A DNA stretch of 64,000 bases from a virus: IMG/VR virus record IMGVR_UViG_3300017917_001910, positions 51,253-115,252 of that record. One strand, written 5' to 3'. Below, one piece after another: positions 416-63,851 of the stretch. Both the position numbers and the translations under genes were made by a program. How positions within the stretch are numbered: the stretch's first letter is position 1; every line of letters starts with the position of its first letter. The notes beneath the pieces were generated by a model. The model searched no databases, had not been told where the DNA came from, and worked only from the letters and a program-made list of their open reading frames with translations.

Positions 416-447
416 CAGTAAAAAAGCCCTTTTTATTAGGGCTTTCT
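416..447 (-). terminator. Intrinsic terminator after the gp26-type gene
   Basis: Read on the minus strand, AAAGCCC and GGGCTTT flank a 9-base loop and are followed by a T run ending TTTTTTACTG. The stem overlaps the last codons of the frameshift extension. The ACTG suffix recurs at four other terminators in this window. Confidence 0.85.
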
Positions 448-684
448 TTTATTGAAGTTTGGTTTAGAAATCTTCGGCATTTTACTTTTTGCTTCTGAAG
501 TTTGTTTTTCAATTTCTTCATTTTCTTTATTAATAAAGTCATTGATTTGTTTAATATAGAATCTTCGAAGCCACACGGGAAAGGAATACACGCTCTCCCA
601 CGTAAATCCTCCTTTGCCATGATATACCAAGTTAAATATCTCGGTATGCAGAATGGGCCTATAGTTAGGCCCCAGGCCAAAAAA
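436..684 (-). CDS. C-terminal extension of the gp26-type protein, reached by +1/-2 frameshift
   Basis: This frame is open for 82 codons but has no ATG near its beginning (only a TTG at 630). It joins the upstream gene exactly at a run of seven T bases. The product reads on from D278 as FFGLGPNYRPI, then IFNLVYHGKGGFTW, ESVYSFPVWLRRFYI and a charged helix ending KRKP. The aromatic/arginine pattern (FTW..VY..PVWLRRFY) and sensible composition mark it as the coding frame here, whereas the frame containing the ATG at 620 gives a cysteine-rich, unconvincing peptide. The fused product would be about 360 residues. The arrangement resembles tail-assembly chaperone pairs of other long-tailed phages. 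The main alternative is a homopolymer indel in the assembly. Confidence 0.72.
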   Translation of the reverse strand, partial: FFGLGPNYRPILHTEIFNLVYHGKGGFTWESVYSFPVWLRRFYIKQINDFINKENEEIEKQTSEAKSKMPKISKPNFNKRKP

Positions 685-686
685 AG
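655..686 (-). promoter_or_regulatory. Programmed ribosomal frameshift signal (slippery T7 run plus hairpin)
   Basis: On the minus strand the zero-frame codons are GAC TTT TTT TGG. Moving one base forward lets both TTT-paired tRNAs re-pair perfectly and enters the open downstream frame. Six bases after the run, GGGCCT and AGGCCC form a perfect 6-bp stem with loop AACTAT. That is the usual spacing for a stimulatory structure. The zero-frame stop TAA (665-667) lies in this hairpin. Confidence 0.7.
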
Positions 687-1519
687 TCCACTCCCACAGG
701 TAAATTTACTTTCCCTTCGTAGAAGCACTCTTGACATAAAAAATCAACATTAAAATCTACACCTGGAGATATAGTTTTAATATGTTCTCTTAAAGCCCTT
801 GAATCCTGAGCAAATAATTCACTATCAACAAAATCACTAATATATTTTCTATCGTCATTACCATCAACTGCAATAATAATATATTTTAATCTTGTAGTAA
901 GGTCTTTACTAATACCTGATTTATTTGTCTTTTTAAGATTTTCAAGTTCTAATTGTATTTTCTTTTCATCTCCGTGAGTAAGTAATTTAAATATTACTTC
1001 TCTGTTTGAAGCTGGAAGAATAAATTTGAATTCATTTGCATTAATCATTTCGGCTTTTTCAATATCAAATTCCTTTTCTTTTAATGTATTTAAATCAAAC
1101 GATACTTTAGATTCTTTATCACATTCAGGGCAAGTGCAAGTAGCATCATACATTTTTCCGTATCCTAAAATTCTCGCAGCAATCATAATAGCATCTTTAT
1201 CAGCGCCAATTAAATCATTATACTTAATAGGAGTTACGATTAATGCTTGAAATAATTTGTCTAATACAACACCTTGTTTAATTAATGATTGTGTTGTAAG
1301 AATATCTTCTTCAGCAGCAGTCATATATTTTAATTCAATAGTGCCACTTCTTAATGGAGAATCTTCTGGATATAATAATCCTTTAGATGGTAATGAAATT
1401 ACTTCTGTTGGGAAATTATGTGTTCTAACTTCTTTTTGCTTGTATTCTTGAATAATACTGTTTTTTAAATCTTGGATAGATGATTTATCCATTGGATAAT
1501 TGTCGTTTACTATACTCAT
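665..1519 (-). CDS. gp26: Baseplate hub / tail assembly chaperone, gp26-like (zero-frame product)
   Basis: 284 residues, matching the T4 gp26-type baseplate family (T4_baseplate). Recognisable parts are the LPSKGLLYP segment near residue 45, IELKYMTAAEEDIL near 62 and a helical core. A CTCPEC pair near 150 and CQEC near 265 could form a zinc site. In T4 the family acts in assembly of the central baseplate hub. In related phages it is the first member of a tail chaperone pair. It is followed without a gap by a second frame that appears to be reached by frameshifting. A promoter-like motif lies 11 bases upstream of the ATG. Confidence 0.82.
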   Translation of the reverse strand: MSIVNDNYPMDKSSIQDLKNSIIQEYKQKEVRTHNFPTEVISLPSKGLLYPEDSPLRSGTIELKYMTAAEEDILTTQSLIKQGVVLDKLFQALIVTPIKYNDLIGADKDAIMIAARILGYGKMYDATCTCPECDKESKVSFDLNTLKEKEFDIEKAEMINANEFKFILPASNREVIFKLLTHGDEKKIQLELENLKKTNKSGISKDLTTRLKYIIIAVDGNDDRKYISDFVDSELFAQDSRALREHIKTISPGVDFNVDFLCQECFYEGKVNLPVGVDFFWPGA

Positions 1520-2175: not shown

Positions 2176-3594
2176 TTATGCTATATTAGATATGTCTTGT
2201 TGGGTTGGTACTTTTATATTATTTGATGCAATCGTATTCATAAGATCTATAAAATTTTTCTTTTTTTGCTGTTCATTACCTTTTAAAGAATTCATAATAT
2301 CTTGAAAATGTGTATTATCTTTAATTTTATCACTATTCATCATTTTATTATAATCTTTTTCAGTAAAATCACTTTTTCTAGCATCATATATATTTAACTT
2401 TTGTAACAAATATCTTACAGGCTGTAGTCTATTAATAAATTCAGTCGGAGTAGTAACATAATCAAATTCCCTACCACCAGATCTATATTCTTTAGATTGA
2501 TTACCGCCATTAGTATATTTATAAATTTTTTCTTTAGTAGAAGCGGGTATTCTATAACCCCCATCGTCGACTGCATGTCCTAATTCATGCGCTGGTATAG
2601 TCTCATATCCAGGAGTATTAAATCCTTTTTCAATATAAATATTCCCTTGTTTATCGTATTTTTTTTTATTTGAACTTGGCTCGTATTTATTCTTAACCCA
2701 TTTTTGTTGTACATAATCCCATCTTTCTCCTTCATATTTTTTACCTATATACATTCCACTGAAATATCCTGGTTCTTTTCCTATTGCATTAACAAACTGC
2801 GTTTTATTTTTTACGCTTTGTAAATTATTAAGTCTAACATCTCTCTCATTTTCAATCCATTTTTTATCTTTACCAGGAAATTCTTTTTGTAGTCTTTGTA
2901 AATATTGTGGAGATTGAAGATAGGAAAGCCACCAATTATATTGACTTGCTAATTCTTCTTTAGCATTTGGGCTTGTTTTTATTACAGTTTCAATTGCAGG
3001 TTCTTTACGTAAAACGTCTCTCTGCGCAGCGGTTAATGAAGGGCTACCTAATACTGCAGATATAATACCTAAAGTTAACATTCCTTGTTTAGCATATGAT
3101 TTTAATTTATCTAATAAAGTGTTAAATGCTCCTTCATTTAAAGTGCTTAATAAATCATCTACAATTTTTTGTTCTTTATCAGATAATTCATTAGATTTTT
3201 CTTTTTCAAATTCTTTTAAATCTTGTGTTACTGGCATATCATTAATTATTAGATCTGTACCACTCTCAAATCCAACAATATTACCTATCTTTAATATCTT
3301 ACCACGAGAGTCTCTTAACATTAATTTAAGATTACCTTTAGGTTTAACATAATTATCTTGAAAAATTTCTATTATATCATCAACATCCCATTTACCTGTT
3401 ATGGTAGTTGGTTTAGAATCTATATCAAAAGTAACTTCTTTTTTTGTGTTGTTATCAGTAACGGTCAATTGGTAGTCTTTATATGACTTATGTTGACCTT
3501 GTTTGAATTCTTCTAACTTTTGTTTATATTGAGATTCTGTAATGATTCTTGCTGTTCTTTGCAAGTCTAATCGTTCTTTTAAAGTTAAGTTCAT
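2176..3594 (-). CDS. Putative virion zinc metallopeptidase, anthrax-lethal-factor-like active site
   Basis: 472 residues. HELGHAVDD at 336-344 contains the HExxH zinc-peptidase motif and closely resembles the lethal factor active site (HEFGHAVDDY). Further on, TPTEFINRL (E385) sits where that family supplies its glutamate ligand, so this is probably a gluzincin of the ATLF type. Residues 1-20 match the N-terminus of the neighbouring 198-residue protein. LNE-G at 152-155 fits a gp21-type cleavage site, followed by an apolar helix (171-183). Residues 40-120 look beta-rich. I infer a protein packaged in the head, trimmed by the prohead protease and possibly delivered to the host. Substrate unknown. 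Confidence 0.68.
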   Translation of the reverse strand: MNLTLKERLDLQRTARIITESQYKQKLEEFKQGQHKSYKDYQLTVTDNNTKKEVTFDIDSKPTTITGKWDVDDIIEIFQDNYVKPKGNLKLMLRDSRGKILKIGNIVGFESGTDLIINDMPVTQDLKEFEKEKSNELSDKEQKIVDDLLSTLNEGAFNTLLDKLKSYAKQGMLTLGIISAVLGSPSLTAAQRDVLRKEPAIETVIKTSPNAKEELASQYNWWLSYLQSPQYLQRLQKEFPGKDKKWIENERDVRLNNLQSVKNKTQFVNAIGKEPGYFSGMYIGKKYEGERWDYVQQKWVKNKYEPSSNKKKYDKQGNIYIEKGFNTPGYETIPAHELGHAVDDGGYRIPASTKEKIYKYTNGGNQSKEYRSGGREFDYVTTPTEFINRLQPVRYLLQKLNIYDARKSDFTEKDYNKMMNSDKIKDNTHFQDIMNSLKGNEQQKKKNFIDLMNTIASNNIKVPTQQDISNIA

Positions 3595-4048: not shown

Positions 4049-4420
4049 TTAACTTAAAAATCTTAATTTATATAATGTGCTTGTTATCAACGTAACAATA
4101 TTATCTATTTCATTTTGAAGGTTTGAATCTTCTTTAACAGAGCCCCTTAAATCTTCAACGGTTTTTAATAATGCTTTAAAATATTTTATAGTATTAGCAG
4201 TATTTTCATAATTATTAAGAGCATAATTTTCATAGCTATTTATAATATCATACTTACCTTGAAACGATTCTACTAACGTATCTACTAATCCAACTATTAA
4301 ATCATAATATTCATTTAATGCTTTATGTTCAGCATATGATTTAGTTTGTAAATGAAATATATGTACCTGCGTAGAAGAATGTAACAGATATGAAATTAAT
4401 TTTATAAATTCTTTGTTCAT
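4049..4420 (-). CDS. Helical ferritin/Dps-like phage protein of unknown function
   Basis: 123 residues, almost entirely helical. The N-terminal half (LLHSSTQVHIFHLQTKSYAEHKAL) has the spaced His/Glu pattern of ferritin-like four-helix proteins and resembles the small Dps-like unknown family found in many large myoviruses. The second half (YENYALNNYENTANTIKYF onward) supplies two more helices. It lies directly downstream of the tail tube gene. Metal binding is possible from the residues but not shown. Confidence 0.5.
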   Translation of the reverse strand: MNKEFIKLISYLLHSSTQVHIFHLQTKSYAEHKALNEYYDLIVGLVDTLVESFQGKYDIINSYENYALNNYENTANTIKYFKALLKTVEDLRGSVKEDSNLQNEIDNIVTLITSTLYKLRFLS

Positions 4421-4491: not shown

Positions 4492-4983
4492 TCAATAGTT
4501 AAGTATAGCATAATCATAGGTAACGGTAACTGTAATAGTAACAGCTTCTCCGTCATTCGCCCAATCCATTTCATTGAAGTTAGCATCTGAACACCAAGCA
4601 CCTTTTAATACCCATTCTTCTACTTTATCACCTACAGGACCTAACATGTTAAATGTAACGTCTTTTTTATAGAAGTCACTATAACCATCACGACCTGTTA
4701 CGCTTTCATGTCCTAGACGAATCCATTCCATTACTGCTTGAGCTCCTGAAGGAACAATTGGGTCATATAAAGTAATAGTGAGATCTTGCCAACGAGACTT
4801 ACCTTTTACTTTTCTGTCTACGTTAATATGATCTAACGTTGTAACAGTTGATGTTAATTGAGGTCTTCCTGCTGCTTTAATAATAAAAGAAGGAATTCCT
4901 TCAATATACATGAAGAATCTATTTGTTTGTTTTGGTTCCCAACTCTGGAACATTATTTCAGCTGGGTCTAAAATTTCTGGCAT
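4492..4983 (-). CDS. gp19: Tail tube protein gp19
   Basis: 163 residues, the same length as T4 gp19. Conserved features of the family include an N-terminal FMYIEGIPSFIIKAA strand pair, WQDLTITLYDPI in the middle, EEWVLKGAWCSDANF near the C-terminus and a final beta strand (VTVTYDYAIL). Hexamers of this protein stack to form the inner tube through which DNA passes. A perfect copy of the late-promoter-like motif lies 24 bases upstream, consistent with strong late expression of a major structural protein. Confidence 0.92.
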   Translation of the reverse strand: MPEILDPAEIMFQSWEPKQTNRFFMYIEGIPSFIIKAAGRPQLTSTVTTLDHINVDRKVKGKSRWQDLTITLYDPIVPSGAQAVMEWIRLGHESVTGRDGYSDFYKKDVTFNMLGPVGDKVEEWVLKGAWCSDANFNEMDWANDGEAVTITVTVTYDYAILNY

Positions 4984-7006: not shown

Positions 7007-9928
7007 TTAAGCAGGAAATTCAGCACCGGTTGGGGTTAGATTAAAGTTAATTACTATAAACTCCGCAGTTTTTGCCGGTTGTAAGTAAATATCACCTACT
7101 AATAAATTTCTGTCAATTACGGCAGGAGTATTATTAGTGTCATCCATTACAACTTTAAATGCATATAATCCTTGTCTTTGTTGGATTGATTCTAAGTAAG
7201 GATTAACGATGCTTAAGAATCTATTTCTTGTTGCTGCGGTATTTTGTTCAAATACTAAGTATCTAGAAGTAGATGCGATATATTTCTTAACAGTTATTAA
7301 TAATCTTCTTACGTTGATTCTATCTAATGCACTAGGCTTTTGTTGTAAGGTTTTTTGACCCCATGCACAAATTCCTTGACTAGGGAAAGAAGCAATTGGA
7401 TTTACTTGATTTTCATATAATGTATCACGCTCTGAATGATTTAATTTTGTTTCAATATTAATAGCATCTGTAATACCACCTCTATTTAAACCTGCAGGTG
7501 CATACCACTCTGCTGCTACTGAATCATTATAAGCTAATACTCCTGGCATTAATACGCTTGGCGGAACCCAAATAGGCTTATTAATAGAAGTATCTAATAC
7601 TTGCATCCAAGGATAATATGTCGCAGCATAATTACTATCCATATTAGCTGTTTGATTTGCTGCTGTTGCAATACTATCTCCTTTAGCTGTATTATCAACG
7701 ATTACAAATGTATCTTGACGTCCTTCTGCTGTTGATATCATATAATTTGCTACATATGGATGTAATCTTCTAATAACACCTGGAGCTAATAACATATTAA
7801 TATCATATTCGTCTTGATTTGAAAGCATATCAAATGCATCTGTATATTTAATACTTCCGTTTGATGTTGCGGTTGATAAGTCATATCCGAATGAATTTGC
7901 GGCAGTAATATCACCACTAGATAATTTAACTCTAGCAGGACTCATACCATCTGAACCACCTTGCATTGGAACTGTAAACTGAACGTTATTAGCAGTTGGG
8001 CCAGTAACACCAGTGATATCAACTCTTGCTTTTAAATCACCTGTATATGTAAATCCTGAATTAATTGGCATTACTAAATTATCAACAACAAAATCTGAAT
8101 TAATTGCTGATACTTCAATTGATGCTGATGTAGGAATTGCTTTTAAATAATTAACATTATCTACTGCTCCAAAATCCCATCCTAAGAATCTATTAGATAC
8201 ATATGATTGATCAGAATCATTTTGAGATACTATATAAGATGCAGGAGGCATATTAGCATTTGTAAATCCAATAAACGTTTGTTTTAGTTTTCTAAATCCT
8301 CTAGGAGATAAAGTTTCGCTTACAGCTTTTGAATCTACTGCAGGATCCATTTCTATTCTTACGTATTTAGAAACGTTATTGTAATTACCATACTCGACAA
8401 CTTTATTTGTTGAAGTAACAAATTCTTTATACTTATCTCCAATTACACGAGCAATATATTGAGGACTATCTGGGTCTAAATTAACGCCTCTATATTGTTC
8501 TAATATACTAGGTCTGTTATCAGTATCGCTATAGCTTCTAACTAATAAATCAAATGTAGAATAACTACCAGAGCTAAATTCTCTTAAGTTAGTAATGCTA
8601 ATTTTAACATCTGTATTAGTATCATTACCGTCACTTAAATGATGAACTTTAAATAAGTTTTGTGTTGTTTTAACACTAAAACCATTAAGACCTGATGTAA
8701 TCCATGGAGTAGAAGCATGATTATAATCAGGGAATGTTACATTATATGATGACGTTAAAACTGTTACTGTTGGTATAAATGATGTAGGCGTGCTACTTCC
8801 AGAAATTACAGGGTATACTACTTTTGTAGGAGTTATTGTTCCTAGGAAAGGTAAGCTAGTTGTATTAATGTTATATGTAGTATTAGAATAACTAGACCAT
8901 ACTATATCACCATTTAAATACATAGTAAATGTACCTGAGCCTGAATTATAAGTAGTTAATGTTGGAATATAATCATAATATGATTCATTTAATATAGCTG
9001 GGTTGGATGTTGTTTCTAATCCAATATTTAAATATTGAGGAGAACCTGTTATAAAGTTAAACGACTCTATTGGCATTGCTGCTTTTATAGATGCTGTTGT
9101 TAACGTAGCTATAAATATTTCAGAATTTAATGCCCAATTTTGAGTAGCAGTCGGAGTAGATGACCATCCGCTTGATGCTGTTAAAAAACTATTACTAGTA
9201 GAGCTAGTTACTGAAAATGCGGTAGTATAGTTATTATTAGCTGTTCCTAATAAAGTAAAGCTACTTGAACCATTACTTACAGATACGCCATATCCATTTG
9301 CTATATTAGTACTAAAATCTTCAAACGTCACATATGAATAAATTCCATTATTATAATTTGTATTACTTATTTTAGTAGAATCTGGAGTGCTTCCAATTAC
9401 TTTACTAATAAAGGTAGTGTTTTGACGATTGATAGATACGGTATAAGTTTTAGCAGTTAAATTACTTCCTGATGCTACTAATGTGAAGTTATTGGAAATA
9501 TTACCGCTTATTGCTGTTGATGCTCTTAAGTCAAAATTAGTACTGGTATTGTTTTTTGCTGGATGTAATCCCGAAACAATTTGATATGTAATTGTTGACC
9601 CCGTTGAAGCAACTGCCACAGCAGCTAATTTATTTGTGTCTGTTGTAAATGTCCAACCGCCATTACCTAAAATACGAACTACCATAGCAGAACTAGCATT
9701 CTTAAGATAATTTTTGATTGCATAAGGTATGTAAGTTTGAGTTGAATCTTCGCCTCCGAACATTACTTGATAGTCTTGAAAGCTTGTTACCTGCATTGGT
9801 ACTAAAGCTGGCCCTTTTAACGTAGGTCCTACGAAGGCTGCTCCTATCTGAGCTATACCAGCGGGAAGAAACGATAGGTCGTTCTCGTTGGTAAATACGC
9901 CTGGGCTAATAATTCTTTCTGTTGCCAT
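7007..9928 (-). CDS. gp18: Tail sheath protein gp18
   Basis: 973 residues, much longer than T4 gp18 (about 659). The N-terminus (ISPGVFTNENDLSFLPAG) and a C-terminal block (ALDRINVRRLLITVKKYI, then FEQNTAATRNRFLSIVNPYL) are typical of contractile sheath subunits. The C-terminus supplies the strands that interlock neighbouring subunits. The segment from roughly 110 to 480 is Ser/Thr/Asn-rich and beta-like, and looks like one or more inserted surface domains. A TTTG/TATATTTG promoter candidate lies about 50 bases upstream and a strong terminator lies downstream, so it may have a monocistronic transcript. Confidence 0.93.
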   Translation of the reverse strand: MATERIISPGVFTNENDLSFLPAGIAQIGAAFVGPTLKGPALVPMQVTSFQDYQVMFGGEDSTQTYIPYAIKNYLKNASSAMVVRILGNGGWTFTTDTNKLAAVAVASTGSTITYQIVSGLHPAKNNTSTNFDLRASTAISGNISNNFTLVASGSNLTAKTYTVSINRQNTTFISKVIGSTPDSTKISNTNYNNGIYSYVTFEDFSTNIANGYGVSVSNGSSSFTLLGTANNNYTTAFSVTSSTSNSFLTASSGWSSTPTATQNWALNSEIFIATLTTASIKAAMPIESFNFITGSPQYLNIGLETTSNPAILNESYYDYIPTLTTYNSGSGTFTMYLNGDIVWSSYSNTTYNINTTSLPFLGTITPTKVVYPVISGSSTPTSFIPTVTVLTSSYNVTFPDYNHASTPWITSGLNGFSVKTTQNLFKVHHLSDGNDTNTDVKISITNLREFSSGSYSTFDLLVRSYSDTDNRPSILEQYRGVNLDPDSPQYIARVIGDKYKEFVTSTNKVVEYGNYNNVSKYVRIEMDPAVDSKAVSETLSPRGFRKLKQTFIGFTNANMPPASYIVSQNDSDQSYVSNRFLGWDFGAVDNVNYLKAIPTSASIEVSAINSDFVVDNLVMPINSGFTYTGDLKARVDITGVTGPTANNVQFTVPMQGGSDGMSPARVKLSSGDITAANSFGYDLSTATSNGSIKYTDAFDMLSNQDEYDINMLLAPGVIRRLHPYVANYMISTAEGRQDTFVIVDNTAKGDSIATAANQTANMDSNYAATYYPWMQVLDTSINKPIWVPPSVLMPGVLAYNDSVAAEWYAPAGLNRGGITDAINIETKLNHSERDTLYENQVNPIASFPSQGICAWGQKTLQQKPSALDRINVRRLLITVKKYIASTSRYLVFEQNTAATRNRFLSIVNPYLESIQQRQGLYAFKVVMDDTNNTPAVIDRNLLVGDIYLQPAKTAEFIVINFNLTPTGAEFPA

Positions 9929-63194: not shown

Positions 63195-63202
63195 TGTTAT
63201 AG

Positions 63203-63276
63203 TGTGTTTAGTCGGATTCGAACCGATCGCTTTATGTACCACAAACATACGTGCTAACCGCTAACACTATAAACAC
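63203..63276 (-). tRNA. tRNA-His (GTG)
   Basis: 74 bases. The acceptor GTGTTTA/TAAACAC is perfect. The D arm is GTGT/GCAC. The anticodon arm TATGT-TTGTGGT-ACATA gives anticodon GTG. The T arm has TTCGAAT with one A-C mismatch at its base. The discriminator base is A rather than the C typical of bacterial tRNA-His. A G lies just before the 5' end where the extra G-1 would come from. No CCA encoded. Confidence 0.88.
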
Positions 63277-63295
63277 CATGTTAATCAACTTAATG

Positions 63296-63368
63296 TGCTC
63301 TCTAAGAGATTCGAACTCCTATCTCTCGGTCCGTAGCCGAGTACTCTAATCCATTGAGCTAAGAAAGC
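63296..63368 (-). tRNA. tRNA-Arg (ACG)
   Basis: 73 bases. Acceptor GCTTTCT/AGAGAGC, D arm GCTC/GAGT, anticodon arm CTCGG-CTACGGA-CCGAG with anticodon ACG, T arm AGGAG-TTCGAAT-CTCTT. All arms pair well. CCA not encoded. Reads CGN arginine codons after A34 deamination. Confidence 0.92.
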
Positions 63369-63484
63369 AAATTATTAGGTCACCGATAACACCTAATGTG
63401 AAGGGTAAAGTTTTGTCTAATTTATCTTACGATACATAGTCGCAGGTTCCCTCTTATTCTTTAACCCGAGTCGGTTTTAAGTTG
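63369..63484 (-). other. Non-coding spacer in the tRNA cluster, element A
   Basis: 116 bases without a gene. Contains a perfect hairpin ATTAGGT/ACCTAAT and a GGGAAC..TGCGAC block related to elements B and C. Could be part of the tRNA precursor or a separate small RNA. Confidence 0.4.
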
Positions 63485-63557
63485 TAATCCTAACAAGATT
63501 CAAACTTGTATCAAACCCTTAGAAGGGGCGTATGCTATTCCGTTGCACCATAGGATT
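63485..63557 (-). tRNA. tRNA-Arg (TCT)
   Basis: 73 bases. Acceptor AATCCTA/TAGGATT, D arm GTGC/GCAT, anticodon loop CTTCTAA (anticodon TCT) on a stem with three G-C pairs and weaker outer pairs, T arm ACAAG-TTTGAAT-CTTGT. It decodes AGA, which fits the AT-rich codon use of the phage. Confidence 0.88.
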
Positions 63558-63764
63558 AATTTAAATAAGTTAATAGCCGCGATTTTGTATCTCTTCTATC
63601 ATTTATCTTTGCCACAACCCGATCATTATTAAGAAACCGACACTCTAGATCTGTTTGTGTTGCTGCTTGTGCGGTTATAACGATGGAATTTAATCAACAT
63701 CTCCCGCAGTAGGTTTTGCAGTCGCGAACTTCCTCTGTTCCCAGCGATAGACTCACTTATTTCG
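63558..63764 (-). other. Non-coding spacer in the tRNA cluster, element B
   Basis: 207 bases, noticeably richer in G+C than the genome average. Begins (minus strand) with CTGGGAACAGAGGAAG and GCGACTGC, then TGTTGATT, a block also present in element C. An AACCG/CGGTT inverted repeat lies in the second half. No protein frame fits. Possible structured RNA. Confidence 0.45.
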
Positions 63765-63851
63765 TACCCCAAGAGAGATTTGAACTCTCACGCTACTATT
63801 ACTTCGCACCCGCTTCTAAGGCGGGCATGACTACCATTCCATCATTGGGGC
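63765..63851 (-). tRNA. tRNA-Leu (TAG)
   Basis: 87 bases with the long variable arm expected for a leucine tRNA. Acceptor GCCCCAA/TTGGGGT (G-T at the end), D arm ATGG/TCAT, anticodon arm CCCGC-CTTAGAA-GCGGG (anticodon TAG), T arm GAGAG-TTCAAAT-CTCTC. Reads CUN codons. CCA not encoded. Confidence 0.92.

Follow-up and report, generated by a model that had tools for sequence, protein, structure and literature searches.

A T4-type tail assembly chaperone gene with a conserved, predicted +1 frameshift site in a large, mostly uncultured group of tailed phages

We analyzed a 64,000-nucleotide stretch of phage DNA (hereafter, the window), which comes from a 115-kb virus record in IMG/VR. We found a gp26-type gene that very probably gives rise to two forms of a tail assembly chaperone, a short form and a 360-aa long form, the latter through a +1 slip of the P-site tRNA-Phe that would be hairpin-aided in most members. 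Two offset reading frames and the site at which they meet are conserved among relatives, and the second frame is related to the C-terminal part of known T4-like proteins; the frameshift itself and its +1 direction we infer from sequence variants. The features discussed below are listed in Table 1.

Table 1. Features of the window relevant to the gp26-type gene, in window coordinates
Feature	Position	Strand	Remarks
gp26-type gene, zero frame (predicted short tail assembly chaperone form)	665–1519	−	ORF, 284 aa, 32.2 kDa
+1-frame extension (predicted C-terminal domain of long form)	436–678	−	80 codons plus stop, open frame
Putative shift site TTT TTT TGG	677–685	−	P-site TTT 682–680, A-site TGG 679–677, T7 run 685–679
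Hairpin GGGCCT/AGGCCC, loop AACTAT	655–672	−	4 nt past the A-site codon, six bases past the T7 run
Terminator-like inverted repeat around the +1-frame stop	423–445		Found on the + strand by terminator scan; T-rich tail on the minus strand as well
Small gene just downstream, 86 aa	119–379	−	ORF
Tail tube protein, upstream	4492–4983	−	phrog_4542, E = 4e-23
Tail sheath protein, further upstream	7007–9928	−	phrog_23, E = 1e-74
tRNA cluster, four genes (His, Arg-ACG, Arg-TCT, Leu-TAG)	63202–63851	−	

The zero-frame gene matched Pfam PF12322 (T4_baseplate; E = 4e-13, 49.9 bits against a cut-off of 24.5) and phrog_150 (baseplate hub; E = 2e-16), in line with the gp26-type assignment made in an earlier note on this DNA. 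Its 3′ end reads GAC TTT TTT TGG CCT GGG GCC TAA, and the T7 run in it is the sole in-frame TTTTTTT among the 33 larger window genes tested. The +1 frame, already open ahead of the T run, continues to a stop at 438–436 and encodes 80 residues counted from the GGC at 678. The open second frame, the zero-frame ending, the T7 run, and the hairpin were all found where the earlier note had placed them; they lie on the minus strand. Fusion of the short form and the extension would yield a protein of 360 aa and 41.3 kDa. The junction peptide predicted for a +1 shift is VNLPVGVDFFGLGPNYR, with two Phe, whereas a −2 shift or slippage would give three (VDFFFGLG). For the window's phage, the predicted diagnostic tryptic peptide over the junction is VNLPVGVDFFGLGPNYRPILHTEIFNLVYHGK; three Phe there would mean −2.

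The second frame bears the signature of a coding sequence. A random GC-matched frame is open equally long with a probability of about 0.001 (25 of 20,000 shuffles). In 12 pairs of sequences, differences within the extension numbered 85, 55, and 231 at codon positions 1, 2, and 3, respectively; this concentration at the third position indicates purifying, protein-level selection. The earlier note had said that the second frame lacks an ATG. This needs qualification: one ATG is present near the C-terminus (the Met of KSKMPK), but in the window no start codon of any kind lies ahead of the conserved part of the 80 residues. The point matters for the alternative of two separate proteins, in which the second frame would have its own start or be reached by reinitiation after the TAA, as suggested by the depositors' annotation of such short ORFs in Flavobacterium phage immuto and in cyanophages. 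However, the strongly conserved first residues, GLGPNYRP, precede the usable starts in the window and in many relatives; an ATG ahead of the conserved start is lacking in 54 of 59 junctions, 36 of the 59 have no start codon whatever there, and the first ATG is scattered from residue 16 to residue 66 or absent. In T4, moreover, gp51 carries the extension in one polypeptide with a gp26-like domain. We therefore regard two separate proteins as extremely improbable.

Searches with the single extension sequence gave weak matches only in Pfam (DUF6760, E = 0.007) and PHROGs (phrog_634, E = 0.16) and no match in the PDB, so that profile–profile comparison was needed for a link to gp51. Against a profile of gp51 and −1-frame extensions, the window's extension scored an hhalign probability of 94.9 (E = 5e-8, 51 columns). 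Judged from these profiles, its homologs are the C-terminal part of T4 gp51 and the −1-frame extensions found in cyanophages, KVP40-like phages, and Ackermannviridae. T4 gp51 matches PHROG 150 over the full profile and T4 gp26 over its first part, indicating that the two are paralogous and that gp51 carries an added C-terminus; PHROG 634 (gp51) was matched by all eleven −1-type and T4 sequences, T4's included. Since the extension is homologous to the gp51 tail and gp26 and gp51 are paralogs, the gene can be read as a short/long chaperone pair of the lambda G/GT type, and the window gene is, by sequence relationship, a T4-type tail assembly chaperone gene with a short and a predicted long form. 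The earlier note had recognized neither this identity nor the link to the gp51 tail, nor the −1 shift of known T4-like relatives at the corresponding Phe-Phe codons. The predicted fold of the extension alone consists of three helices (pLDDT 83). A Foldseek search with it against viral models returned no significant match; annotated tail or tape-measure chaperones were among the weak ones (E of about 4). As a separate observation, DUF6760 was matched weakly but repeatedly by the extension (window 439–678, −), in 13 of 30 members with a best E of 0.007.

T4, whose gp26 and gp51 are known as hub assembly chaperones, has the gp26-type domain (PF12322, phrog_150), the homologous C-terminal extension (phrog_634), and a short and a long form in common with the window's phage, but it encodes them in two divergently oriented paralogous genes, where the window's phage has one gene and a proposed frameshift. 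We found −1-type gp26 genes in S-RIM8, Melnitz-1, a KVP40-like phage, Aeromonas 65.2, ZPAH1, PhiW-14, SRB7757, Cygsa01, and two Ackermannviridae. These genes (of cyanophages, Melnitz-1, KVP40-like and Aeromonas 65-like phages, PhiW-14, and Ackermannviridae) share with the window's family the same terminal Phe-Phe or similar site, T-rich and typically TTT TTC, and a homologous extension, about 60 residues in the −1 frame; their slip would be backward, at T TTT TTC or a comparable T-rich sequence, whereas that of the window's family would be forward, at TTT_TGG. The −1 extension is annotated, if at all, as a separate tiny gene. Small genes labeled 'baseplate hub assembly catalyst' (L103:6504–6641, L106:4309–4482, L107:3223–3366, and similar ones in cyanophage, Cygsa01, and Melnitz-1 genomes) look like fragments of the −1 extension of the upstream gp26, and their annotated starts skip its conserved first residues. 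The −1 type, with its X XXY YYZ heptamer and −1-frame extension, was not seen in the window, where the extension is in the +1 frame; it was found only in the outgroup and in the loci L098, L099, and L009.

We compared both parts of the gene with loci from IMG/VR and annotated phages using tblastn. In nearly every locus the second part was offset from the first by +1, and among relatives with both parts the only exceptions were L098, L099, and L009, which are −1. A census of 64 distinct junctions comprised TTT TTT TGG (57), TTC TTT TGG (3; loci L016, L018, and L026), TTT CTT TGG (1; immuto, a complete genome), TTT CTA (1; a 484-kb phage), and the −1 type (2), so that 61 of the 64 contain YTT TGG. 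All 15 GTDB MAG contigs with both parts also had the +1 offset, 14 at TTT TTT TGG and one at TTT TTT TTC. In more distant phages (Streptococcus GXN1, Bacillus SP-15, and Listeria LIS04), the second part is likewise +1 after a Phe-Phe pair; the site is TTC TTT CGT in GXN1. In LR756508 it reads AAC TTT CTA. The A-site codon is not universal, since TGG gives way to TTC in the MAG contig L156 and is lacking from LR756508 and the Firmicutes phages. In a set of 37 diverse members, the site Phe codons are almost always TTT (36 of 37 and 36 of 36 cases), whereas other conserved Phe codons of the gene mix TTT and TTC. Their synonymous homogeneity ranks highest, or nearly so, within the gene, other conserved codons varying freely. 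Nucleotide conservation past the TGG is partly due to two-frame coding, but the site Phe codons precede the overlap.

The alternative raised in the earlier note was an indel in the homopolymer. Homopolymers are error-prone, and gain or loss of a single base would join the two frames, so that the gene could in truth be single-frame, interrupted in the T7 run by a sequencing or assembly error or by a real indel. Yet the same offset occurs in the cultured phages immuto, Mel-JY01, SP-15, LIS04, and GXN1, in IMG/VR contigs, and in the 15 MAG contigs, which come from separate projects and include homopolymer-free sites. We also searched with a DNA pattern for the window's cassette that omitted the full T run, which matched 43 contigs (31 distinct matches); the T run was seven T or TTTCTTTT, and six or eight T occurred in 0 of the 31. 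No relative had both parts in one frame, and the relatives with TTC TTT TGG and TTT CTT TGG, which keep the offset frames, already refute this alternative, leaving it almost impossible. The programmed frameshift proposed in the earlier note is supported by these offset frames, which are kept across cultured phages, IMG/VR contigs, and MAG contigs, the −1 loci aside.

That note had left the direction as +1 or −2. The two lead to equivalent frames, and according to the same note Mu-type tail genes use −2. The site variants separate them: at TTC TTT TGG, TTC TTT CGT, and AAC TTT CTA (L016, L018, L026, GXN1, and LR756508), the P-site tRNA would have to pair with TCT or ACT after a −2 slip, but a +1 slip would take it from UUU to UUU or UUC. 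P-site re-pairing in the +1 frame is allowed by YTT TGG in 61 of 64 junctions and by TTT_C in others, the weakest fit being TTT_A in LIS04. A −2 shift at the T7 run thus appears very improbable, and of the two original options only +1 stands as the most likely direction. Transcriptional slippage at the T7 run, yielding mRNAs that lack one U or have gained two, is a further candidate. Poly-T runs can trigger RNA polymerase slippage, and TTT TTT TGG CCT with a seven-T run is present in 51 of 64 junctions. The offset is kept, however, where the run has only four or three T (L016, L018, L026, and L003) and at TTC TTT CGT (GXN1) and TTT CTA (LR756508), and we give slippage very little credence. Taken together, the T7-free variants TTC TTT TGG, TTT CTT TGG, TTT CTA, and TTC TTT CGT argue against both −2 and slippage and favor an RF2-like mechanism in which the P-site tRNA, for Phe or Leu, moves one base forward. 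The Firmicutes phage junctions L006, L007, and L008 have CC CGA TT in common a few bases past the Phe codons. In these phages the ribosome might instead slip at NCC_CGA, a sequence that is perfect in GXN1 alone.

The perfect 6-bp hairpin described in the earlier note lies at 672–655, and the zero-frame stop TAA (667–665) is at its stem–loop boundary. Across relatives, 81% of its cells are paired, and 4 of 6 pairs show changes on both sides; its covariation score was reached by 0 of 500 shuffles, and the local fold has a z of −2.8. The Arg codon AGG, found in the hairpin stem of 26 of 36 members, is rare elsewhere (1–4 of about 37 at other conserved Arg sites of the gp26-type part). These patterns make the hairpin a likely stimulator of the shift. 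It is not essential to the family, because a comparable hairpin is absent in several lineages (L004, L017, L031–L033, L040, L061, and L066), and in our view it probably serves one subgroup as an accessory stimulator. An upstream Shine-Dalgarno-like stimulator was considered and dropped; the GGAG of the window is not conserved in relatives. No phage tRNA gene for Phe or Trp was found in the 64-kb window. At the other end of the extension, the terminator-like repeat overlaps the +1-frame stop, as if the transcription unit ended with the extension, which would be expected if the extension were the true gene end.

The gene lies in a tail module. Beyond the 86-aa downstream gene, outside the window, are genes of 744 and 1019 aa in the usual tape-measure position; neither had a family match, and they are tape measure candidates by position alone. 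The window's order of sheath, tube, gp26-type gene, and two large genes resembles that of immuto and LIS04, where the sheath, tube (or tail completion), and gp26-type genes are followed by an annotated tape measure, placing the gp26-type gene between tail tube and tape measure. Other genes of the region include a DUF5856 protein (PHROGs: starvation-inducible transcriptional regulator) between the tail tube and chaperone genes (4049–4420, −). The upstream neighbors at 1564–2160 (198 aa) and 2176–3594 (472 aa), both on the minus strand, have a similar N-terminus, LTLKE-L--Q--A-IIT-S-Y; the 472-aa protein, which matches a tail-protein PHROG, also bears a metallopeptidase-like motif (HELGH).

In the tree, the −1 and two-gene phages split from the +1 branch with full support. 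Three −1 loci, L098/L099 and L009, are placed inside the +1 branch or next to it. In the IMG/VR contigs L098 (2288–3201) and L099 (2288–3177), the extension follows TTT TTT TTC in the −1 frame, whereas in the MAG contig L156 an identical TTT TTT TTC is followed by an extension in the +1 frame; such a site may work in either direction. The full tree implies four direction changes, but an AU test run without L009 and the T4 pair did not reject a tree that holds all +1 rows together (p-AU 0.21). Several independent switches were therefore set aside: there was at least one direction change, and repeated switching is not claimed.

T4-like tail assembly chaperones are the subject of Vladimirov, Gautam and Davidson (2022, Virology 566:9). 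Papers that cite it mention separate short and long genes in some T4-like phages and poly-T −1 signals in T4-like chaperone genes, so the chaperone identity and the −1 frameshift are, on their account, already known. G-T frameshifting has been described as conserved among long-tailed phages 'except T4' (Atkins et al. 2016). The literature searched, in which Vladimirov et al. (2022) figured through citing papers only, contained no description of a +1 branch; the new part looks to be the +1 version with its YTT_TGG–hairpin cassette. Lambda G/GT similarly pairs a short and a frameshift-extended long chaperone in the tail module, but through a −1 shift at a different site; the likeness drawn here is one of organization. 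The haloarchaeal myovirus HSTV-2, a contractile-tailed virus named as a likely +1 case in its tail chaperone gene (Atkins et al. 2016), is comparable in gene type and probable shift, and is an archaeal virus. The closest parallel in the site itself is RF2 (prfB), CUU_UGA C, with the same YUU_U P-site slip, slow A-site codon, and following C; immuto's TTT CTT TGG C is one base away, in the A codon. The A site is a stop in RF2 but a sense codon (Trp) in the window's family, which adds a downstream hairpin in most members and shows no conserved Shine-Dalgarno-like stimulator. Natural RF2 sites are chiefly CUU_U, with UUU_U as a minor variant that is reported to be the weaker +1 site (PMC5009743).

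For the hairpin's role, the ratio of short to long product, and the chaperone mechanism, we propose the following. Standard translation would give the short gp26-type form. At TTT TTT TGG C, with peptidyl-tRNA-Phe on UUU in the P site and a slowly filled UGG in the A site, a fraction of ribosomes would slip +1 onto the overlapping UUU, making GGC the next codon, and the hairpin 4 nt past the A site would aid this in most members. Slipped ribosomes would read on in the +1 frame to complete the long form, whose helical C-terminal domain would be the equivalent of the T4 gp51 tail. Lambda G/GT suggests a division of labor in which the short form would coat the tape measure protein while the long form, the less abundant one, would recruit the tail tube or hub.

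A large, mostly uncultured group of tailed phages thus appears to make both chaperone forms from one gene by a +1 skip at a conserved site, whereas the T4 relatives compared appear to use a backward shift at the matching site or two separate genes. We consider it fairly probable that the terminal Phe-Phe is an old two-way recoding site (backward on T TTT TTC, forward on YTT_TGG) whose direction flipped, T4 having duplicated the gene instead. Both proteins and the need for two forms would have been kept through the flip; the backward version would be that of classical T4-like phages, and the forward cassette, with a Trp codon as slow A-site codon and a dedicated hairpin, that of the large, mostly uncultured branch. 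For this T4-related branch, a tail assembly chaperone is identified where depositors had annotated a hub subunit and a stray small ORF. It also offers a natural +1 cassette, UUU_UGG C plus hairpin, tractable in reporters, together with a homologous −1 counterpart that has the same protein need, nearly the same codons, and the opposite slip. With this pair one can test whether tail-gene shifts owe their direction to historical accident or to the A-site codon and RNA structure.
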